64,000 nucleotides of DNA from assembly GCA_030550395.1 (NCBI GenBank), contig JAUQPL010000004.1:42501-106500 (forward strand), in the 5' to 3' direction. The stretch's first letter is position 1. Every line of letters starts with the position of its first letter. Below the pieces are notes generated by a model that worked only from the letters and a program-made list of their open reading frames with translations, had not been told where the DNA came from and did not search any database. The stretch comes from Bacteroidota bacterium (lineage in GTDB: Bacteria; Bacteroidota; Ignavibacteria; Kapaibacteriales; HRBIN21). The position numbers were made by a program, and so were the translations under genes. Shown in pieces: positions 8,231 to 58,103 of the stretch.

Positions 8231-9334
8231 CTCGGAGGCTGGCAGCGGCAGACGGAAGAGAACGCGTGTCCCGCCGCCGGGGGCTTGTTCAATGTGGAAG
8301 CTGCCACCGTAGAGTTCCACCAAGCGTTTCGCCAAGGTCAGCCCTAAGCCGATCCCTTGTTGTTCGTACAGGAGCCGTCCAGGTTGGTGGTATGCCCGGA
8401 TTCGGTTGGGGAGATCGGGGGGAATGCCAGGGCCGTGGTCTCGGATTTCCGCCAGGAATTCGTTCTCGGTGGACCAAGTGTGGATGAAGATAGGGGAGCC
8501 AGGGGGAGAGAACTTCAAAGCGTTGTCCAGGAGTTCCTCGGCGATTTTGGCGAAGTGTTCCGTTGGCATTGCCAGGCGAAGGTTCAGTGCCATCAGGGAA
8601 AAGCGGAGGTCGGTTGCTCGTTCATATTCCTCTGCCTTCATGAGGGCGATATCCTGCAGCACGATGGAGGGTTCTTCGACGGTGAACTGACGGAGCTGCT
8701 CCACTAATTCGGGGGCATTGGCTAAAAAGTCCGTTCGGGCGTAAAGAAGGAAATTCTCCGTCAGTCGGAGGAGGCGACGAGCGGAAAGCTGGATATCTTC
8801 ACTCAATTCGCGCAACTCGTCTGCAGTAAGCTTGTCGGCGAAGACTTGGAGGTGGGTGGCGGCCCCTAAAATTCCGTTGAGGGCGGTCCGGAACTCATGG
8901 GGCAGGGCGTAACTGAGGCTTCGTTCCAGTTCGGAGAGGCGTTCCTTGTATTCGGCTTGGAGTAGCGTAGAGCGCTCTAAGTGGCGGTTGATGACCTCCA
9001 GCAGAGCTTGTCCTGTGATAGGCTTCGTTAGGTAATCATCGGCTCCGATTTGAAGTCCGATCCGGGCGTCCATTTGGCTAGCGCGGGCAGTCAGGATGAT
9101 AAACGGGACAGAGCTGAGCTCTTCTGTGTGGCGCACTGCTTGGAGGACTCCGATACCATCTATTTCAGGCAGTGCCAAGTCACAGAGAATAAGGTCTGGT
9201 CTCTCCTGCACGGCCAACTCTATACCCTGACGCCCTGTTGTAGCGACAAGGACGGTGTGCCCCTCTAATTGCAAGATGCGAGCAATGCCGTGGGCAAGGT
9301 ATTCGGCGTCCTCAATGACCAGGATCTTCGCCAT
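8204..9334 (-). CDS. REC-HisKA-HATPase response regulator/histidine kinase
   Basis: MAKILVIEDAE... LILCDLALPEIDG, LTKP; HEFRTALNGILG; N box ELLDNALKFSPPG; DHGPGIP; GLGLTLAKRLVELYGG. Confidence 0.88.
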   Translation of the reverse strand: MAKILVIEDAEYLAHGIARILQLEGHTVLVATTGRQGIELAVQERPDLILCDLALPEIDGIGVLQAVRHTEELSSVPFIILTARASQMDARIGLQIGADDYLTKPITGQALLEVINRHLERSTLLQAEYKERLSELERSLSYALPHEFRTALNGILGAATHLQVFADKLTADELRELSEDIQLSARRLLRLTENFLLYARTDFLANAPELVEQLRQFTVEEPSIVLQDIALMKAEEYERATDLRFSLMALNLRLAMPTEHFAKIAEELLDNALKFSPPGSPIFIHTWSTENEFLAEIRDHGPGIPPDLPNRIRAYHQPGRLLYEQQGIGLGLTLAKRLVELYGGSFHIEQAPGGGTRVLFRLPLPASEWTREDSNL

Positions 9335-12300
9335 AGGGGAGTGGAGCATTGGTTTGACCGTATTCTGCCAGCGGGAAGAGAAGCGTGACAGTGGTTCCGA
9401 CACCAACTTGGCTTCGAAGCTGGACGCTGCCCCGGTGGGCTTCCACGAACTCTTTGACCATTGCCAGCCCCAAACCGACCCCAGGGATGCCTTGAGTGTT
9501 GGAGCCTCGGAAGAAGGGTTGGAAAACGTGGGAGAGGTCTTCTTCTGGAATGCCGATGCCAGAGTCTTCCACCTCTAACACGGCTGTCCCCAACTCTTCC
9601 CGTAACCGCACAGTAATGGACTGGTGTTCTCGGGAGTACTTGGAAGCGTTGGTGAGCACATTGAGCAGGACGAAGCGGAGAACACGGGCATCGCCGTAGA
9701 TGACCACAGGGTTCTGAGGAAGCTCAAGCTGAAGTGCCTGCGATTTGCTCCGAAGCAAAGGCTGAACGCGTTCGGCTGCTTCCTGGCACAGACTTTGCAA
9801 GGAGACAGGGGCAAGCCGTAAGGAGCGACGGAGCCCTTCCAAAGAGCTGTGGGCGAGGAAGTCCGTTACAAGGGTGTTTAGGTCCTGAACACGCGAGGAG
9901 ATGTTTGCCAGTTCTTGAAGGCGCTCGCCTGGAGAAAGCCGGTCGAAGTACTTCTGCAAAAGCTCTACCGAAAGCTGGATGCCGGCCAAGGGGGTTCGGA
10001 ACTCATGGGCAATTGTGCTGAGCATGCGGGAGCGCATGACCGCTAGCTCCTGCTCCCGTTCCAGGGCTTCTTGGAGCTGACGTCGGAGGAAGAGTTGGGT
10101 TGTGATTTCAGGGGCGAAGATCCGGACTCGGTTGTATCCCGGCAGCCAGAAGATGTGTTGTAACCATGCCTGGTCCCCGAGCACAAGTTCTCGAACCTGC
10201 GTCTGGACACCCGATTGGACAAGCTCGGGCAGTATATCCAGCACTGGTGCTACCCATGGGTGATGGGGGGAAAATTCCGCAATAGGCAAGGAGTTGCGCG
10301 CAGCTGGATTGGCATAAGCTAACCGTCCCTCGGCAGTCAGCTCCACAATCGGGATAGGCGAGTGCTCCGGGAATGCCGCCAGGTAGCGAAGTTGCTCTTC
10401 TGCACGTTTGCGCTCTGTAACATCAAGGCCAACTTCAATGACTCGCCATCCGCTCCGTTCTCGGACTTTCGTTGCGTGGAGTTCCAGCCAATAGGGTTGA
10501 CCATCTTTTCGCAGACAGCGGTATTCCAGATGGAGCATTTGCCGCGTGGGGTCTTTTATCCATTCCTGCCAGCGCTGCGTGACCCAGTCCCGGTCTTCCG
10601 GGTGGACTGTATTTGCTCCCGAGATGAGACGCAGGTCTTCGAAGGTGTAGCCCGTAATGGCGGTAAAGGCAGGGTTGACGTAGAGGTCGTGTTGGGATCC
10701 TTGCTCAGTGAACAGGACTTCCAGAATTCCGACGGGGAGGGCATCCAACAGGAGGCGGTATCGTGCCTCGCTTTCGTCAAGCGAGAGTTCCAAGAGTTTC
10801 CGTTGAGAGATATCTACACCAGTGCCCACAACTTCGGTGATCGTACCATCCTCTGTAGGGACGGGCTCTAAGGTATAGAGGAGCCAGCGGTCGCCTTGGG
10901 GGAGTTCATAGCTTACCCGTTCGCCTGCAAAAGCGCGCTCTAACGCATCAGGAGAAATGCGGAGCTCTTCGGGGAGCTCCTCTAGGGGATGGTCGGAGAG
11001 GGCAGAGGTTGTCATCGTACCGGCTAATTTCCCTTCCCGAAGCGCGTACCGAACACGGCCATCGGGGCCGCGTTGGAGGCGGAAGACGATGGCATGGAGA
11101 TTCTGAACCGTGCGTCGGAAATCTTCCTGGAGGGCTTGTCGGAGAGCTTCCTCTGTACGCTTCAATGGAGTGATGTCCACACACACTTGGACGATGCTCT
11201 CTACGCTCCCGTCGGGGTTCCGCTCGGCGTACAGGTACGTATCTAGCCAAACGACCTCACCTTGGCGATTGAAAATGCGGTAGTCTAAGCGCTGGACGCC
11301 GGGAAAGCCGGCAGATTCCCATTGGCGCCAGAAGTGGAAGATAGTTTGGCGGTCTTCAGGGTGGATCATCTCAATGAGTTCGCGATCAGAGAGCGCCTCA
11401 AACTCCTCCAGTGTATAACCGCTTTGGCGTTCAAATTCTCGGTTAGCAAAGAGGTACCGCCGTTCCCGTAGGCTGAAGCGCGTGATGGCGATAGGGGCAT
11501 GCTCGGCAAGCATCCGAAGGCGGTACTCGCTTTCCCGGAGCTTTTCCTGCAGGCGAAGGCGTTCAATAGCAATTCCTAAGGCTGCTCCAAGGGTAGTGAA
11601 GAAATCGCGGTCCTCTTCCCTTAACTCAAGGGGGACGGGGTGGAAAAGCTGGAAAGTACCTAACAGGGTCCCGGATTCGCCGAGGATGGGGTAGCTGACA
11701 AGCGCCCGTATTCCAACTTCTTGCAGGCGTTGTCGGTGGGGCTCGGAGAGGGGATAGAGATCCGCATTAGGGATAAAGAATGGCTCTCGGGTACGGGCAA
11801 CGTGGGCGGCGAGGAACCGCTCGTCTGTGATTGGAACCGGGGGGAACTGCTCGGGTGGGAAAGGACCGGTCAAGGCGACGGGAACTAAAAGTTCACCCTC
11901 CAACAGGCGAACATTTCCGCCAGCGAATCCTAACTCCCGCGCAGCTTGCGTCAGGAAGTATTGGCAAAGCTCCGCGATGGAATGGCTCTGAAGGGATGCC
12001 GTTGCAATAATCTGGAACGCCGCGCGTTCCCGATCCCGTTGGCGCTGTAATCGTTGCTGCTCGGTGATATCAATACCGATAACAAGTACGGCAGGACTTC
12101 CCTCATAAGTTGCCCTCGTTGCCACTACGAGGGACTCCAACCGAGAACCGTCACGGCGCAGCAAAACCGTGTGACGCGGGGGTACGGTAGAGACCTCGCC
12201 GCGGTAGAGGGCAGTGATACGCTCTATTGCACCCGGACGATCTTCTGCAGCGACGAGCTCTAGCGGAGACAGGCCATGGAGCTCTTCAGGGGATTGAGCA

Positions 12301-13691
12301 CCCAGGTACTGAGCAGCGCTCTGGTTAGCATACAGAACACGTCCTTCGCGATGGATAATCACGGGAACCGGTAGCCACTCCAGTAGTTCCCGGTATTGGG
12401 TTTCGGAACGCTGCAGGGATGCCCAGAGTCCGTTATTGAGGAGCCCTAATTGGATGAAGCGAGCAAAGAGGAGTACGGTGTCTGCTTCTTCTTCGGAGAA
12501 TGGAGGCTGCCCGAAACGAGCTATAGCGAGGATCGCTCGTTGTTGTTGGACTGTCATCGGAATCCCAATAAGGTGCTCGGAGGTCGGAGGGATGAAGTCC
12601 TCAGGGTAATACGTGCGGGGGTCTTGATGGGCATTGTTTACAACTTCGGGTTTCCCCTGCTGCAGGATGTGTCCAAGCAGGCTTCTCTGCAGAGGAATGG
12701 CCGAACGGACCAGAGATTCCAGGGAAGGTGTGGAGATGCTATACCATCGGGGTATAAGGTGCTCATTCTCCACTTCATAGAGGCAGGCTAAGTCCAAAGG
12801 GGTAAGCTCGGTGAGAGCATGAACAGCATCAGAGAGAAACTGCTCCGGTGGGCGAAGCTCCAGGAGGGAGTAGAGCAGATGGAGTAAGCGCTGCTGGAGT
12901 TCCAGTGCCCTCTGGTTGCGGCGCTGAAGGCTACGCAACTCCGTAACATCGCGGAAGGCAAGGACGGCTCCGAGGATACGGCCAGACCGGTCTCGGACAG
13001 GGGCTCCGCTGTCGTCAATAGCTATCTCTTCACCATCCCGACGGCGGAGAATCGTGTGGTTTGCCAAGCCTACGACTATGCCTTCCTGGAGGACGCGGCG
13101 AACAGGGTTCTCCGCAGGTTGCCCGGTCTCCTCATTGTAGATGGGGAAGACCTCTTCCAGCGGGCGGTGGAGGGCTTCGCTCAATGTCCAGCCGGTGAGT
13201 TTTTCGGCCATGGGGTTGAGGAACTGGATGTGTCCGGCCGTGTCTGTGACAATGATGGCATCTCCAATACTGGAGAGAATATCCCAGAGCCAATTGGACT
13301 CAGCGGTGGTAGAGGTGTGGAGGCGTTGGGTACGGTGGAAAAGTACAGGCAGCAGCGCGCGGAGCTGCCGAGCAGTAAGCGGTTCCACCAGGATTTCCAA
13401 AGGTGCAAGGCGGGAGAGCTCGTCGGTGTACCGCTCAGCAACCTCTGGGTGGCACAGCAGGATGAGTGCGGAGGTTGGGCAATGGGAGAGTTGTTGGGAG
13501 ATGCTCGGGAAATCTTCTGCTGCCAGACTCACGAGGGCGAGATCGTAGAGGTTTTTAGGGTAGCTAGGCAGCTCTTCCACAGGGATGGGGGTAACATGGG
13601 AAAACCCTGCTCTTTGGCAAAGCCGGCGCAAACGTTGAAGGCGGTCCGGTGATACAGCACTGACTAGGATTCGGATGGATTCGCCTGGCAT
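9312..13691 (-). CDS. Large soluble sensor histidine kinase (pseudo-receiver, multiple PAS, two GAF, HisKA, HATPase)
   Basis: 1459 aa; repeated PAS motifs, HEFRTPLAGIQLSVELL, NVLTNASKYS, DSGIGIPEEDLSHVFQPFFRGSN. Confidence 0.88.
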   Translation of the reverse strand: MPGESIRILVSAVSPDRLQRLRRLCQRAGFSHVTPIPVEELPSYPKNLYDLALVSLAAEDFPSISQQLSHCPTSALILLCHPEVAERYTDELSRLAPLEILVEPLTARQLRALLPVLFHRTQRLHTSTTAESNWLWDILSSIGDAIIVTDTAGHIQFLNPMAEKLTGWTLSEALHRPLEEVFPIYNEETGQPAENPVRRVLQEGIVVGLANHTILRRRDGEEIAIDDSGAPVRDRSGRILGAVLAFRDVTELRSLQRRNQRALELQQRLLHLLYSLLELRPPEQFLSDAVHALTELTPLDLACLYEVENEHLIPRWYSISTPSLESLVRSAIPLQRSLLGHILQQGKPEVVNNAHQDPRTYYPEDFIPPTSEHLIGIPMTVQQQRAILAIARFGQPPFSEEEADTVLLFARFIQLGLLNNGLWASLQRSETQYRELLEWLPVPVIIHREGRVLYANQSAAQYLGAQSPEELHGLSPLELVAAEDRPGAIERITALYRGEVSTVPPRHTVLLRRDGSRLESLVVATRATYEGSPAVLVIGIDITEQQRLQRQRDRERAAFQIIATASLQSHSIAELCQYFLTQAARELGFAGGNVRLLEGELLVPVALTGPFPPEQFPPVPITDERFLAAHVARTREPFFIPNADLYPLSEPHRQRLQEVGIRALVSYPILGESGTLLGTFQLFHPVPLELREEDRDFFTTLGAALGIAIERLRLQEKLRESEYRLRMLAEHAPIAITRFSLRERRYLFANREFERQSGYTLEEFEALSDRELIEMIHPEDRQTIFHFWRQWESAGFPGVQRLDYRIFNRQGEVVWLDTYLYAERNPDGSVESIVQVCVDITPLKRTEEALRQALQEDFRRTVQNLHAIVFRLQRGPDGRVRYALREGKLAGTMTTSALSDHPLEELPEELRISPDALERAFAGERVSYELPQGDRWLLYTLEPVPTEDGTITEVVGTGVDISQRKLLELSLDESEARYRLLLDALPVGILEVLFTEQGSQHDLYVNPAFTAITGYTFEDLRLISGANTVHPEDRDWVTQRWQEWIKDPTRQMLHLEYRCLRKDGQPYWLELHATKVRERSGWRVIEVGLDVTERKRAEEQLRYLAAFPEHSPIPIVELTAEGRLAYANPAARNSLPIAEFSPHHPWVAPVLDILPELVQSGVQTQVRELVLGDQAWLQHIFWLPGYNRVRIFAPEITTQLFLRRQLQEALEREQELAVMRSRMLSTIAHEFRTPLAGIQLSVELLQKYFDRLSPGERLQELANISSRVQDLNTLVTDFLAHSSLEGLRRSLRLAPVSLQSLCQEAAERVQPLLRSKSQALQLELPQNPVVIYGDARVLRFVLLNVLTNASKYSREHQSITVRLREELGTAVLEVEDSGIGIPEEDLSHVFQPFFRGSNTQGIPGVGLGLAMVKEFVEAHRGSVQLRSQVGVGTTVTLLFPLAEYGQTNAPLPYGEDPGH

Positions 13692-14961: not shown

Positions 14962-15665
14962 GGACGAGCACTGTTGGGCTGTTGAACAGCGTTGTGCTGT
15001 TGGATGATGTCCAGCAGCTCTTTGATATCGTCTAAGACGTAATCGGCATTGACCTCTTGAGTGCCGAAGGTATCACCGTAGCGGGCGAACGCGGTCAGCA
15101 TACCAACGCTTTTTGCCCCAACGATGTCCCGTTCCACCCAGTCGCCGACCATAATGGTCTCATGGGGATGAACCTGGAGACGCTCCAGCGCCAGCAAGAA
15201 AGGGCGTGGACTGGGTTTTCGTTGGCCGGTGTCGTCATATGTGACGACGACGTCAAAGATGTGGTGATAGCCGATATAGCACAGGCGGAGCCATGCCTCA
15301 CGGGCGGGGGCATCGGAGACAACGCCTAATTTGATGCGCTGCTTGACTAACTCCATCAGGGTTGCGGTCACATGGGGATATGGTTTCAATGCTGCTTCTC
15401 GGGCTCGGCGGTAGGCAATGATACCGGCAGAGAGGATGCGGTAGTCCACATACCCCAGAGTTTCCATGAGGAGCTGGTCGAAGACCTGCTGGTATTCAAT
15501 GCCCATCTCGCGATAGATGCGGTCAATGTGAGCTCGAACGATCTGTGGGCTTAACTGAAGTCCAGCGTCAATCATAGCCGTAACGGCGGCATCAATCGCC
15601 TGCCGTTTCATGGCCATAAAATCCACCAGCGTATTGTCCAAGTCGAAGATCACGGCACGGATCAT
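14958..15665 (-). CDS. HAD-superfamily hydrolase
   Basis: IFDLDNTLVDF, VVSDAP, MVGDWVERDIVGAKSVGM. Confidence 0.85.
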   Translation of the reverse strand: MIRAVIFDLDNTLVDFMAMKRQAIDAAVTAMIDAGLQLSPQIVRAHIDRIYREMGIEYQQVFDQLLMETLGYVDYRILSAGIIAYRRAREAALKPYPHVTATLMELVKQRIKLGVVSDAPAREAWLRLCYIGYHHIFDVVVTYDDTGQRKPSPRPFLLALERLQVHPHETIMVGDWVERDIVGAKSVGMLTAFARYGDTFGTQEVNADYVLDDIKELLDIIQQHNAVQQPNSARP

Positions 15666-17974
15666 GGCATTGTCCGGCGTCGGTGTAACAGTACAAGTGC
15701 AAGCAGTCCACCCAAAGTGCTGAGACTGCTGATCCAGGCTCCGATGCGGAAGGGCTCAGAATCGTAGCGTAATTCTACGATGTGTGTGCCAGCCGGGATT
15801 GCAACAGCGCGAAGGCTGTGGTATGCTCGCAGTATTGGGGTTTCTTTGCCGTCCAGAAACGCTTTCCATGCAGGGTACCAGATCTCGCTCAGGCATAGAA
15901 GTCCTGGTTTTGCGGTCTGGACCTTCCACCGCTGGGAGTTATGCTCGTAAAGCAGGCATTCAACCGAGTGAGGGATCGTATCGGGCACAAGTTGAAGTAA
16001 GGGCTGCGGGGGTGCTTGCTCCAGCAGGGCTTCGATTCGGGGGTTGATTTCTCCACGGCGGAGTACGGCTTCAGTGCTATCACTGGGAACGACACGGGCT
16101 CGGTAGACCATCCAGGCTCGGGGTAGTGCTGTCGGACGTTCTTGGAAGTAGAGACGTCCGCTTGCAGTGTCAAAAGCGATGCGGTAGCGGATGTTGAGGA
16201 TGTCAAAGGTTGCCTCTGCTGTCGGCATAGGAGGATTCCGGCGTTGTAGCCGGAGCTGATTATATCCTTCGTAGAGCATGATGCTGTCCAGCAGTCCTTG
16301 GTTCCGTAGCATTGCCATGCCGAAATCCGCCCGCATAGAGACTCGGAATAACTCCGCAGGGGGATTGGGCTGGAGCATTCGCTTCAAATGTGGGTCTAAG
16401 TTATAGAAGCGCTCAGGAGGCGCCGATGACTGCACGAATGGGGCATGGGTTCGGGTGAGGTCTACAGTGAGGATGACCGTGAGCACTCCGCCGGCCAGGA
16501 GGGGGGAAACCCAGCCCCGCCAGAGGGCGAGGGTGGTGAGAAAAGACAACACGGTGAGCCAGAGAGCAACTGTTCCCTCGCTCTGGAGCTGAGGAAGGAA
16601 TGTCTTCGGAGCCTGGAACGCTGTCGGTAAAATACCCGTGCTGACCAAGAGAGCGATGCCAGCAATGAAAGCGGCAGCCCAGCCAAGGTGGAGTAGGAGT
16701 GGGCGATGACGTGCGGAATGCCAGAGAGCGTCAAATCCCCAGGCAGCAAAGAGGCAGAGGGCGAGAACACTGATGAAGAGGATGCGCGGGGGCACACGGA
16801 ACAGAGAAAATCCCGGGAGCTGGTACAGGAGAGGAAAAAGGAAGCCATACTTTCCAAAGGCGAACAAGAGGGAGAATGCAAGAGCGCCGATCCAGAAAAG
16901 CCCAAGGGGAGTACGCCACCGTTGGAGTATCCCAACGAGGGCAAGCAGCAGAATTGGAATGCCTACGTAGAAGGCGGTTTCCCAATAGTGGTAGTACGCT
17001 ACTCCGGGCAGGTAGAGTGGCACATGGCGCTGTCCAGGGGGTTCGGTGCTCCCGAACAGCTTGGGGGTGATGAGGGTGAGGATTTGCTGGGGTAAAAGGG
17101 AGACCTCCGCCGCCCATTCCAATCCCTGCCCAGCAGAGCGCTCGGAAAGGGAGGCCAGCTCTTGGGTTGGAAGGTACTGTACGGCGACCATCCCTGCTGC
17201 TAACACCAGGGGGAGAGCAAGGCGAGCAATGTCGAGAAGAGGCAACCGCTTGTATTGGAGACCACGGGAACCGACGAGCCAGAGCCCAAAGCTGATAAGC
17301 AGCAAATAAGTATAGAGGATCGTTTGAGGATGTCCAGCATGGAGACTCATCCCCAGTAATAGTCCGGCTCCTACCGCCCGTTGCCAGCGAGCCTCTTCTA
17401 TGGCGCCTTTCAGGAGCCAAAGAATCCATGGCAACCATGCTAAGTGGTAGACAATCATCGGGTGGATGGCGTGGTGTGTCAGAATTCCCGAGAAGCCGTA
17501 CCCAATGCCAACAAGCAGAGACGCCAGCGGGCTGGCACCAAAGGAGCGGCTGAGTTGGTACATGCCCCATTGAGCAAGGATGAAATGAGCAATGACCAAT
17601 GTCTGGACAACCCAGAACGGCACAGTGCCCAGCAGCAAGTAAGTCAGCCCGAGGAGGCTGTGGGGGAGATAGAAGAAGCCTACCTGTGGATCAGCCAGAA
17701 AGGGCATCCCGCAGAAGGTATAGGGATTCCAGAAAGGGAGCGTGCCATGAGCCCAGTGCCGTGCAGCAAAGACTTGGTTGGGATAAAACTGCTCGATGAA
17801 ATCTTCCCAGAAGAAGCGGGAGCCTGTGAGGTTTGCCCAGAAGAAGGCTGCCGTGGTGAGGATAAAGAGAATACCGGGGACCCAGGGAGGCAATATCGGA
17901 GATGGTCTCGGGGAAGTAGAGCGCCCGCGCTGCATGTGAAGGCGGGCAGGAGCATTTCGGTCACGCGTTGCCAT
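15662..17974 (-). CDS. YfhO-family multi-TM membrane protein
   Basis: 770 aa, many TM segments, FWEDFIEQFYPN near the N-terminus, soluble C-terminal domain ending VELRYDSEPFRIGAWIS. Confidence 0.75.
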   Translation of the reverse strand: MATRDRNAPARLHMQRGRSTSPRPSPILPPWVPGILFILTTAAFFWANLTGSRFFWEDFIEQFYPNQVFAARHWAHGTLPFWNPYTFCGMPFLADPQVGFFYLPHSLLGLTYLLLGTVPFWVVQTLVIAHFILAQWGMYQLSRSFGASPLASLLVGIGYGFSGILTHHAIHPMIVYHLAWLPWILWLLKGAIEEARWQRAVGAGLLLGMSLHAGHPQTILYTYLLLISFGLWLVGSRGLQYKRLPLLDIARLALPLVLAAGMVAVQYLPTQELASLSERSAGQGLEWAAEVSLLPQQILTLITPKLFGSTEPPGQRHVPLYLPGVAYYHYWETAFYVGIPILLLALVGILQRWRTPLGLFWIGALAFSLLFAFGKYGFLFPLLYQLPGFSLFRVPPRILFISVLALCLFAAWGFDALWHSARHRPLLLHLGWAAAFIAGIALLVSTGILPTAFQAPKTFLPQLQSEGTVALWLTVLSFLTTLALWRGWVSPLLAGGVLTVILTVDLTRTHAPFVQSSAPPERFYNLDPHLKRMLQPNPPAELFRVSMRADFGMAMLRNQGLLDSIMLYEGYNQLRLQRRNPPMPTAEATFDILNIRYRIAFDTASGRLYFQERPTALPRAWMVYRARVVPSDSTEAVLRRGEINPRIEALLEQAPPQPLLQLVPDTIPHSVECLLYEHNSQRWKVQTAKPGLLCLSEIWYPAWKAFLDGKETPILRAYHSLRAVAIPAGTHIVELRYDSEPFRIGAWISSLSTLGGLLALVLLHRRRTMP

Positions 17975-18037: not shown

Positions 18038-19030
18038 TTAGGGCAAGGAGGGGCTGCGGCAAAGCTCTTCTTCCGGAGCCAGTTCGAGAAGCCGTTCCAG
18101 CGCTTGACGTGCCTGTGCCGCAAGCTCTTCCGGGATAAGGATTTCCGGTTCGCCCTGGCGGAGGCAGTGGTAGAGTTTGGGAAGAGTGTTGAGAAACATA
18201 TAAGGACAGCGTGTGCAGTGGCATGCTTCCTCTGCCGGCAGAAGCAGAAGTTCAGCTCCATTGGGCAGGCGTGTGCGTAAATGCGGTGCCAATCCGTGGT
18301 CGCTTGCCACGATGAGACGCTGCGGGCGGTATTCCGATACGTACCGGAGGAGTTGATGGCTGGAGCCGACAAAATCAGCATTCTGGCGAATCTCCGGTGG
18401 ACATTGTGGGCTGCTGAGCACGACGGCATCGGGATACATCTGCCGCCAATGGTGGAGGAGGGTGAGAGAGAAGCTGGTATGGACGGAGCAGCGTCCGAAC
18501 CAGCAGATGATGCGGCGTCCAGTGCGTTCCCGGAGGAAGTGCCCCAACTCGTGGTCAGGGGCAAAGAGCAGAGGGGTATCCTTGGGGAGGCGTCGGACAA
18601 TAGACTCAGCTGTCCCTGTGGTGACAACGATATCAGCCAGAGCCTTCACGGGGATGCTGCTTTGGATATGGACGATGGCGAGGGCGTCAGGGTACGCTTC
18701 CCGCAATCGGGCGAAGAGCTCCGGTGGACAACTCTCCGCTAAAGAGCAGCTTGCCAGTGGATCGGGAACGAGCACGCGCCTATCGGGATAGAGAACCTTG
18801 ATGGATTCAGCAATGTGGACTGTGGCAGCGACAACCAGTGTTTGCTGAGGGAGCCGACGGACAGCATGGAGCAAATGAAGGGTATCGCCAACGACATCGG
18901 CGAGCATTTCAATTCCATTGCCCTGGTACCAATGAGCCAGGATGGCAGCATCTTGCTTTTCCTTAAGCTCCTGGAGGGCTGAAGCCCAATCTGTCAGTGT
19001 CCATGCCGGTGTCGGTTCTGGAGACGGCAT
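18038..19030 (-). CDS. Quinolinate synthase NadA-like Fe-S protein with divergent active site
   Basis: AHWYQ...ADVVGDTLHL, VPDPLASCSLAESCP, FAPDHELGHFLRERTG, FGRCSVH, PQCPPEI...ADFVGSS, CPYMFLNTL; start ATG directly after the ATR stop. Confidence 0.75.
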   Translation of the reverse strand: MPSPEPTPAWTLTDWASALQELKEKQDAAILAHWYQGNGIEMLADVVGDTLHLLHAVRRLPQQTLVVAATVHIAESIKVLYPDRRVLVPDPLASCSLAESCPPELFARLREAYPDALAIVHIQSSIPVKALADIVVTTGTAESIVRRLPKDTPLLFAPDHELGHFLRERTGRRIICWFGRCSVHTSFSLTLLHHWRQMYPDAVVLSSPQCPPEIRQNADFVGSSHQLLRYVSEYRPQRLIVASDHGLAPHLRTRLPNGAELLLLPAEEACHCTRCPYMFLNTLPKLYHCLRQGEPEILIPEELAAQARQALERLLELAPEEELCRSPSLP

Positions 19031-19031
19031 T

Positions 19032-19586
19032 TTACGGAGCAGTCCAGGGAATATCTGCAATCCCAGCCCGGTAATTGACCAGACGGGCAGCGACGAAGAG
19101 ATAGTCCGAGAGCCGGTTCAGGAAGGGCAATACAGTGGCGTTGAGTGGTTCAATCTGAGCCACTGTGGCGACAGCCCGTTCGGCGCGCCGGCAGACTGTG
19201 CGGGCAAAGTGCAAATGGGCTGCCGCAGCGTGCCCAGCCGGTAGGATGAAGTGGCGCAGGGGAGGAAGCTCGGATTCGTAGGCGTCAATACGACTCTCCA
19301 GCCAGCGTACATGCTCATCACTGATGGAAGGTATGGTATGGCGGACAGGGGCATCCAGAGGCGTTGCCAAATCTGCCCCCAACACGAAGAGCCATGAGCT
19401 AATGGTCCGGAGGTCTTCCGAGATCTCTGTAGGGAGCAGGTGGCTGAGCACGATGCCAATGACGGCGTTGAGCTCGTCTACCGTGCCATACGCTTCGAGG
19501 CGTGGATGAGATTTCGGAATGCGCTCGCCACCGAAAAGCCCTGTCGTGCCGTCGTCGCCAGTACGGGTGTAAATACGGGAAGCCAT
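19032..19586 (-). CDS. Cob(I)yrinic acid a,c-diamide adenosyltransferase, PduO type
   Basis: RIYTRTGDDGTTGLFGGERIPKSHPRLEAYGTVDELNA, FILPAGHAAAAHLHFARTVCRRAER. Confidence 0.92.
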   Translation of the reverse strand: MASRIYTRTGDDGTTGLFGGERIPKSHPRLEAYGTVDELNAVIGIVLSHLLPTEISEDLRTISSWLFVLGADLATPLDAPVRHTIPSISDEHVRWLESRIDAYESELPPLRHFILPAGHAAAAHLHFARTVCRRAERAVATVAQIEPLNATVLPFLNRLSDYLFVAARLVNYRAGIADIPWTAP

Positions 19587-19589
19587 AGG

Positions 19590-20255
19590 TTATGGCCTGT
19601 ATTCAAAACTTTCCCCTGGTTGGAGGATGACAACCCGTGCGCGGTCGCCGACCAGACGGGCAAACTCCTGCGGGTCCTGTTCAATGGGCGGGAAGGTGCC
19701 ATAGTGCATGGGAATGGCAACCTTCGGACGGAGGAATTCAACAGCCCGGGCAGCGTCGGCAGGATCCATAGTGAAGTATCCTCCGATGTGAAGCAGCGCA
19801 ACATCCAGCGGGAATTTCTCCCCGATAAGACGCATGTCCGAAAACAAACAGGTATCGCCAGCGTGGTAAATATTGACGCCATTCAGGTGAATGACAAAAC
19901 CCACTACGGGCACGGCATGGAAGGCCAGGGTGAAACTCACGCGCACCCCTTCCGTTACTGGAACGGTTCCGCCTACATTCCCTCCAACAACGGAAACGCC
20001 GCGAGCCTGTGCCTTCTGGGCTAAGTCAAAGAAGCTTACGAACAGCGCGCGCGTGCGCCGGCAGATTTCAATAGCATCCTCAAAACCGTGGTCACCATGC
20101 TCATGCGAGACGCAGACCACATCGGCACGCTGGATCTCAGCAGGGCTCCGAAAGGGACTGCGGGGGTTGCCTGTAATGAAGGGATCAATGAGGACCACTT
20201 TGCCCGCCCCTTCTAACTGGAAAGCGGCATGACTGAGCCAAGTAATGCGGACCAT
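19590..20255 (-). CDS. UPF0173-type metal-dependent hydrolase (metallo-beta-lactamase fold)
   Basis: ITWLSHAAFQLEG, SHEHGDHG, YHAGDTCLFSDM, PMHYGTFPPI. Confidence 0.9.
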   Translation of the reverse strand: MVRITWLSHAAFQLEGAGKVVLIDPFITGNPRSPFRSPAEIQRADVVCVSHEHGDHGFEDAIEICRRTRALFVSFFDLAQKAQARGVSVVGGNVGGTVPVTEGVRVSFTLAFHAVPVVGFVIHLNGVNIYHAGDTCLFSDMRLIGEKFPLDVALLHIGGYFTMDPADAARAVEFLRPKVAIPMHYGTFPPIEQDPQEFARLVGDRARVVILQPGESFEYRP

Positions 20256-56452: not shown

Positions 56453-58103
56453 GGTCTTCGTAAGTCAGGATCCATGTGGCAACACTGCTTTCGTCAATGT
56501 TGGGGAGCCGGCTCCAGTGGAGGCGCCATTCACCGCTGGCGGAGCTGGTATCAGCGTCATTAGTGTGAACGTGTGCGATCATCTTCCGGAAGCGCTCCTG
56601 CCAACGTGCCATGTTGGCAGGGCGGAGGTCTATCCATCCAGCTTCGCACCACCGCTCAATTGTTTCAGGAGTGCATCGGTGGTCCTCGGTGGAGGTAGGG
56701 ATTTTGAGCTCAGCCCCGCGCAGATAGCGACGTCCATCGGGCAGGAGGATAGCCAGGCCGATGGTGAGGATTTGCGAGCGGAGGGAGCTATCACGGCACA
56801 GTATGTCCCATAGCTTTTCGGAGATGTCCTCTGGTGTGTGTTCCAGCACGGTTGGGATAGAGCCGAAGGCACGCTTGAGCAGGTGAGCCTCATAGAGCAG
56901 TTTAGTCAACCGTGGGGGTCCGAGCATCTCAAAGGCAATGCCTTCCGTGTGATGTTCGTACTCCAGCTGGCGGAGTAGTTCCACGGCAACATGACGGAGG
57001 GCCCCGCCGCGGTATGTGGGTCCCAGGACTGAGGCGTCGAAGGCCGCAACGATATCATACCCGGTGTTGCCACCGCGCAACTCTTGGACGACGACTTCGG
57101 CAATTTCTTCCGGGGTGATCAGCTCCATTTGCCCAAGGGCGGTAACAGTTTCAAACTCTGCTCGGGCAAAGACACCGTTTTCCCCTGTGTCAATGAAGAC
57201 GGAGCGTAGGGGCTCGTTGGAGCGCCGCAGTGTGTCCGGTGGCTGGAGCGGGAGCCTATCCCCAAGCTCTGGTGCTTCCTCAGGGGGCAAATCCACACGT
57301 AGGAGAGGACGTCCGCGGAAGAGGACGGTGTCGTAAGCAATACGCTTCCACCCGATAATAGCGGCAGGCTTGATCTCCTTGATGATAGGCGCTCCCGGAG
57401 TGCGTCCCATGAGGAAGAGAAGGAGGGAGTGGGCTCCGGCAACGGCGGATTTTGCTAGCAGAACACGCGATGGGCGCTCCTCGCTATGGGTATAGGGGAT
57501 ATTCAGCCCCATGCCACCGGTACCCGTCGTCCCGACCTTTAAGTACACTTGGGTTCCAGCCTCCAGGAGGCTGTGGTACAGAATCTGTACGTGCCGGATG
57601 AGCTGTGGGATGTAGAGGCTACATAGAAGGTGTTCGACCGTTTCGCTGGACTCAGCTCCCTGCCGTAGGGTCTTCCAAACGGCGGAGGCAGTGGTGTAGA
57701 TGTCCTGGTAGGCAATTGCTGTGGCAGTGTTGATGCAATCGACAACAATGTCGGGGCGAACGTCGGTCAAAAGCTCGTAGAGGGCGGATTGGCGAAGGCG
57801 GTGTTCGTCTAATTCAGCTAGGAGGTCCTCAATGAGGGCAGCGCGGGTTGCCGGATCGCGCAACAGCTCCGATCGGGAATGTTCTTTCCAAGCGCTGCGG
57901 AGGAAGATATCCCCCCAGCGAGCTTCAATGGTAGCGGAAGGAAAACGGCGCCGCAGTTCAACAACGGCTTCTTCGGCTTCGGAGCGACGGAGGGAAGTCA
58001 GGACCAAACGTTTGGGCTGTTCAGAAAGTAGACGATGGCAGACGGCGGACCCAACTAATCCCCATCCGCCAAGAACCAGCACGGTACGGTCACGGAGTTC
58101 CAT
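56430..58103 (-). CDS. Uncharacterised large Rossmann-fold (extended-SDR-like) protein
   Basis: MELRDRTVLVLGGWGLVGSAVCHRLL nucleotide-binding start; VGTTGTGGMGLNIPYTHSEERPSRVLLAKSAVAGAH; no family I can name. Confidence 0.65.
   Translation of the reverse strand: MELRDRTVLVLGGWGLVGSAVCHRLLSEQPKRLVLTSLRRSEAEEAVVELRRRFPSATIEARWGDIFLRSAWKEHSRSELLRDPATRAALIEDLLAELDEHRLRQSALYELLTDVRPDIVVDCINTATAIAYQDIYTTASAVWKTLRQGAESSETVEHLLCSLYIPQLIRHVQILYHSLLEAGTQVYLKVGTTGTGGMGLNIPYTHSEERPSRVLLAKSAVAGAHSLLLFLMGRTPGAPIIKEIKPAAIIGWKRIAYDTVLFRGRPLLRVDLPPEEAPELGDRLPLQPPDTLRRSNEPLRSVFIDTGENGVFARAEFETVTALGQMELITPEEIAEVVVQELRGGNTGYDIVAAFDASVLGPTYRGGALRHVAVELLRQLEYEHHTEGIAFEMLGPPRLTKLLYEAHLLKRAFGSIPTVLEHTPEDISEKLWDILCRDSSLRSQILTIGLAILLPDGRRYLRGAELKIPTSTEDHRCTPETIERWCEAGWIDLRPANMARWQERFRKMIAHVHTNDADTSSASGEWRLHWSRLPNIDESSVATWILTYEDHGFRGKR

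Follow-up and report, generated by a model that had tools for sequence, protein, structure and literature searches.

The gene at 18038-19030 on the reverse strand of the window, the whole 64,000-nucleotide stretch of DNA that was analysed, encodes a protein with the predicted fold of quinolinate synthase (NadA) in which the cluster cysteines are retained and much of the substrate pocket is replaced, and it is probably a [4Fe-4S] paralogue of NadA that has neofunctionalised to act on another substrate. The original prediction had left a choice between a paralogue retooled for another substrate and a fast-evolving NadA; the former is favoured because the same genome holds a canonical NadA and the motifs of the paralogue are not shifted. 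As for the retooling itself, we infer cluster binding, enzymatic activity and a changed substrate.

18038-19030, reverse strand: NadA-like paralogue, quinolinate-synthase fold with a substituted substrate pocket, 330 aa.

The open reading frame runs intact from 19030 to 18038 over 330 codons, with an ATG start and a TAA stop. The Pfam NadA profile PF02445 matches its product with 264.2 bits (E 1.7e-78) over profile positions 3-295 of 295. When an AlphaFold2 model (34-sequence alignment, pLDDT 94.6) was searched with Foldseek, the 19 best matches were all quinolinate synthases, the top match being the quinolinate-bound NadA structure 6F4L (TM 0.94, rmsd 1.7). The landmarks of the quinolinate synthase fold that had been recognised from the sequence are borne out by these matches, and the fold is confidently predicted to be that of NadA. 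The cut-offs of the two nearest NCBIfam nadA equivalog models are narrowly missed, with 283.3 against 294 for NF006878 and 258.1 against 262.9 for TIGR00550, where the canonical NadA of the genome scores 410 and 332. Scores only slightly below the NadA equivalog cut-offs count against our reading, and they speak for an alternative that we regard as quite unlikely, in which compensating substitutions have rewired a working quinolinate synthase, making it a redundant second NadA in the genus and the sole one in genus member G004.

The residues retained by the paralogue were identified in an alignment of the six orthologues with 59 other NadAs, Thermotoga maritima NadA among the 59.

18746-18748, reverse strand: codon of Cys95, cluster ligand equivalent to T. 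maritima Cys81 (alignment).
18488-18490, reverse strand: codon of Cys181, cluster ligand equivalent to T. maritima Cys168 (alignment).
18206-18223, reverse strand: CHCTRC (Cys270-x-Cys272-x-x-Cys275), of which Cys275 is the cluster ligand equivalent to T. maritima Cys254 (alignment).
18926-18934, reverse strand: His33-Trp-Tyr35, retained domain-1 pair equivalent to T. maritima His19/Tyr21 (alignment).

The [4Fe-4S] cluster of NadA has three cysteine ligands, which leave one iron open. Ligation of this cluster by three cysteines is also stated in the literature (PMC9981529). Cys95, Cys181 and Cys275 are invariant in all six orthologues and in 59 of 59 other NadAs, and their alignment with T. 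maritima Cys81, Cys168 and Cys254 agrees with the earlier proposal that the three cluster cysteines (in LASC, FGRC and CPYM) survive. The AHxYQ His/Tyr and CxVH His, also expected to remain, are found as His33 and Tyr35 of AHWYQ and as His184 of CSVH, the latter equivalent to T. maritima His171. Besides the cysteines, the orthologues retain His19, Tyr21, His171, Asp31, Asp35, Lys115 and others (T. maritima numbering). The cluster is most likely still bound through the three cysteines, with one iron open as a Lewis acid.

In addition to these retained residues, the alignment reveals a set of replacements concentrated in the pocket motifs.

18662-18670, reverse strand: HIQ (residues 121-123) replacing Y-[VI]-N (T. 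maritima Tyr107/Asn109); all six orthologues have this His and Gln (alignment).
18611-18622, reverse strand: TTGT (137-140) replacing TS[AS]N (T. maritima Ser124/Asn126) (alignment).
18401-18412, reverse strand: SPQC (207-210) replacing HPEC (T. maritima His193/Glu195); all six orthologues have this Ser and Gln (alignment).
18359-18367, reverse strand: GSS (222-224) replacing GST (T. maritima Ser209/Thr210) (alignment).
18296-18301, reverse strand: Asp244-His245 replacing an invariant Glu (T. maritima Glu230) and the residue next to it; the new pair is fixed in the paralogue (alignment).

Of the 34 positions that are invariant in the 59 other NadAs, 19 are unchanged in the orthologues and six are variable among them; the remaining nine, each changed in all six orthologues, are V56T, M59 to I, V or L, Y107H, N109Q, S124T, H193S, E195Q, T210 to S or A, and E230D. 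N126T is likewise changed in every orthologue, Asn126 being 97% conserved among the 59. One identical new residue is shared by all six orthologues at seven of the nine changed positions, compared with 39% of all columns (binomial estimate of our own, about 0.02), so that fixed replacements at invariant positions are more frequent than expected by chance. Most of the changed positions fall in the YxN, CTSxN and HPEC/GST motifs, which we take to be substrate contacts. For Tyr107, Asn109, Ser124, His193, Glu195 and Thr210, pocket residues that are invariant in the 59 NadAs and replaced in all six orthologues, the individual roles are taken from the structural literature on NadA; the replaced residues presumably bind the carboxylates of iminoaspartate and quinolinate in NadA, and the glutamate of HPEC presumably acts at the open iron. 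Crystallographers have altered some of the same places, as read from PDB chain titles and sequences, which include S124A, a Y107F sequence and the HPEC E to Q change in 6ORA.

All of the motif changes first listed for the window protein (GDT, HIQ, VTTGT, SPQC, GSS and CPYMFLNTL) are real, and three of them do not extend across the genus. GDT is not diagnostic, as three of the six orthologues keep GDS; the Phe of CPYMFLNTL occurs in the window protein alone, with Arg or Ala at this place in the orthologues and Arg also in some of the canonical NadAs of Kapabacteria; and GSS is GAA in the most divergent orthologue. E230D and V56T had been missing from that list, yet are changed in all orthologues. 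The possibility that catalytic residues are conserved at shifted positions is refuted by an alignment that is ungapped across the motifs and by a predicted fold that superposes on NadA.

The retention of His19, Tyr21 and His171 together with replacement of the putative carboxylate-binding residues and the glutamate makes a NadA-type Lewis-acid reaction on another small molecule the likeliest function. Part of the catalytic machinery would thus be kept, and the protein may catalyse a NadA-like reaction (lyase, dehydration or condensation) with a different small molecule as substrate. The rewired quinolinate synthase introduced above would accord with the chemically mild nature of several of the swaps (N to Q, S to T, E to D, T to S), but the replaced residues are kept by 59 of 59 other NadAs, from class-wide Bacteroidota to Thermotoga, and the E to Q swap at HPEC is one that also turns up as a substitution in a solved P. 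horikoshii structure (chain 6ORA). Loss of Glu195 and His193, invariant in the 59 other NadAs, from a protein that keeps the cluster ligands and the predicted fold could also point to a non-catalytic Fe-S protein derived from NadA, for example a sensor of redox state or iron, or a partner that regulates either the canonical NadA or the adenosyltransferase encoded alongside. We consider this unlikely, since His19, Tyr21, His171 and other pocket residues are invariant and the new ones are fixed, which suggests that a ligand is still bound and handled.

The position of the gene, one base from an adenosyltransferase gene that it adjoins in all six genomes, is the other observation in favour of such a non-catalytic protein.

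19032-19586, reverse strand: PduO-type cob(I)alamin adenosyltransferase, one base upstream of the paralogue (family searches).
19590-20255, reverse strand: PRK00685-type metal-dependent (beta-lactamase fold) hydrolase, conserved upstream neighbour (family search).
15662-17974, reverse strand: YfhO-like membrane protein, conserved downstream neighbour (family search).

The single base between the adenosyltransferase stop and the paralogue start is as originally described (..CCGTAA-A-ATG..), and in three other genomes the paralogue starts directly after the adenosyltransferase stop. The gene order common to the genus is plsY, hydrolase, adenosyltransferase, NadA-like, YfhO-like, HAD, def and pdxH, of which the core from hydrolase to def is kept even in the most distant genus member; in G005 the contig ends inside the paralogue gene. 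No obvious pathway that would include the paralogue was found among its neighbours (adenosyltransferase, hydrolase, YfhO-like, HAD, def and pdxH), which are mixed housekeeping genes, and the adenosyltransferase could be either a partner in function or just a neighbour in the operon. Elsewhere in the window, 9312-13691 on the reverse strand encodes a very long protein of 1459 aa that resembles histidine kinases and has apparent PAS/GAF repeats.

The host belongs to a genus of uncultured, mainly hot-spring Kapabacteria (Candidatus Kapabacteria), and its genus mates in public data include Bacterium HR21 and several Kapabacteria/Bacteroidota MAGs. The paralogue is present at a syntenic locus in all six genus genomes, and its orthologues form one clade (support 100/100), so that a tree does give the separate clade with the same neighbours that had been proposed as a check. 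No orthologue was found outside the genus among 391 class and 395 phylum genomes, where the next best match scores 348 bits against at least 562 within the clade, and a scan of public genome contigs matched only genus members and two flavobacterial NadAs. Among the five closer genomes, the paralogue has 66-86% amino-acid identity while 53-78% of fourfold sites are different. It is under purifying selection that is weaker than that on the canonical NadA; between G000 and G003, identity is 70.7% for the paralogue and 84.9% for the canonical NadA. This faster evolution and the loss of many family residues are what would be seen in a decaying, non-functional former nadA, an explanation that we find very improbable. 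The reading frame is open in all six genomes (cut by the contig end in G005), and protein identity across the genus is still 50-86% despite heavily diverged synonymous sites; a decaying gene would be unlikely to keep every cysteine and at the same time fix new residues at other positions.

A comparison with a true relic is available within the genus, and it comes from the NAD genes. The host genome (1.94 Mb, 99% complete) contains a canonical NadA at G000:C2:5116-6027 (L001:1462-2421; 394 bits) with every canonical motif, so the paralogue is not the only NadA of its genome, as it might have been were it simply a fast-evolving NadA. Of the five other genomes of the genus, four likewise have a canonical nadA with every motif. 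The host also carries nadX, nadC, pncA and pncB, with nadX (aspartate dehydrogenase) in place of nadB. The absence of nadB and nadC from the window, remarked on at the outset, is correct for the window and weighs little, as nadC, nadX and the canonical nadA sit elsewhere in the genome, and with these three genes de novo NAD synthesis has no obvious need for the paralogue. The single 375-bit nadB match in the genus is a succinate dehydrogenase flavoprotein (G000:C15:82271-83899, L035), which a naive search would call nadB; the genus appears to be without nadB. The genes for nicotinamidase, nicotinate phosphoribosyltransferase and aspartate dehydrogenase are clustered at G000:C10:4500-11500 (L112), joining NAD salvage and de novo genes.

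In G004, the canonical nadA is reduced to a relic, frameshifted and with a large deletion inside it (G004:C5 about 57133-57540, L058:7134-7540), with DNA similarity to G005 still recognisable and its usual place kept, between a glycosyltransferase and the same neighbouring gene. Decay in this genus therefore looks different from what is seen in the paralogue. The nadX gene of G004 is otherwise conserved and has a single in-frame TGA (L109:1399-1401), which could be a nonsense mutation or an assembly error. The paralogue, pncB and nadC are all intact there, and nadC shows no acceleration. That the paralogue is intact in G004, although the genes for both steps leading to quinolinate are damaged there, argues for another function. 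The normal nadC beside a lost canonical nadA favours the rewired synthase, as it could mean that the paralogue feeds it quinolinate, but nadX, the only candidate source of iminoaspartate that was found, has the stop, and pncB salvage is intact; taken together, G004 leans against quinolinate synthesis by the paralogue, a lean rather than a proof. At the window locus, G004 and G005 look like near-sister genomes, with 86-95% protein identity, but nadC and nadX are only 77% identical between them (L049, L050, L065, L067, L105, L109), hinting at recombination or transfer between genus members.

The paralogue clade branches among NadAs from other families of Kapabacteria and from the class, with a stem of 2.06 changes per column in an unrooted tree that has long branches. 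The canonical nadA of the genus is of a different type, with its own long stem and an insert after HPEC (HPECGCMSxxLYxC), and the paralogue shares about 35% identity with the canonical NadA of its genome (32-35% to this NadA or T. maritima NadA). That the paralogue arose by recent duplication of the canonical nadA of the genus is made less likely by this identity, by the different parts of the tree in which the two lie and by a constraint placing them together, which is rejected only moderately (p-AU 0.038). The insert, and a grouping apart from most Kapabacterial NadAs, suggest that the canonical nadA may have been horizontally acquired. The paralogue would then descend from a Bacteroidota/Kapabacteria-type quinolinate synthase, with quinolinate synthesis in the genus now performed by the second, different-type nadA. 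The simplest story, inferred from this unrooted, long-branched tree, would be that the native NadA was freed once another nadA had been acquired and then took on another role.

We give an even chance to the stronger statement that the NadA fold here supports a new enzymatic activity, with a [4Fe-4S] cluster as Lewis acid and a pocket fixed unlike that of every other NadA examined, and that this enzyme is confined to one Kapabacteria genus. To our knowledge, no NadA paralogue has been characterised as having another reaction, and the open-access literature searched yielded nothing relevant on paralogues of NadA or on a link between NadA and cobalamin adenosyltransferase. The NadA family is regarded as having a single function and is annotated automatically, and a paralogue such as this would easily be labelled quinolinate synthase even though residues thought to define the reaction have been lost. 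An activity of its own would mean that the unusual three-domain Fe-S scaffold of NadA is open to retooling, and the fixed differences would provide a short list of positions that may set specificity. The genus is in this respect a natural experiment, with one member (G004) having lost the canonical nadA.

Compared with quinolinate synthase NadA (PF02445; TIGR00550; 4P3X, 5F35, 6F4L, 4ZK6, 6ORA), the paralogue shares the predicted three-domain fold (TM 0.93-0.94), the three cluster cysteines, the AHxYQ His/Tyr, the CxVH His and the C-terminal CxxM, and differs in all orthologues by Y107H, N109Q, S124T, N126T, H193S, E195Q, T210S/A and E230D. Its closest relatives outside the genus, canonical NadAs from the class and from other families of Kapabacteria (e.g. 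G008, G147), have about 40-45% identity and share CxCxxCPYM, but they keep every invariant NadA residue, are usually the sole NadA of their genome and have no adenosyltransferase neighbour in the flanks examined. The P. horikoshii chain 6ORA (HPEC to HPQC) has the same glutamate change as the paralogue; there it is the one difference from the other P. horikoshii chains, in a protein that is canonical in all else, whereas in the paralogue it is natural and stands amid a wholesale change of the pocket.
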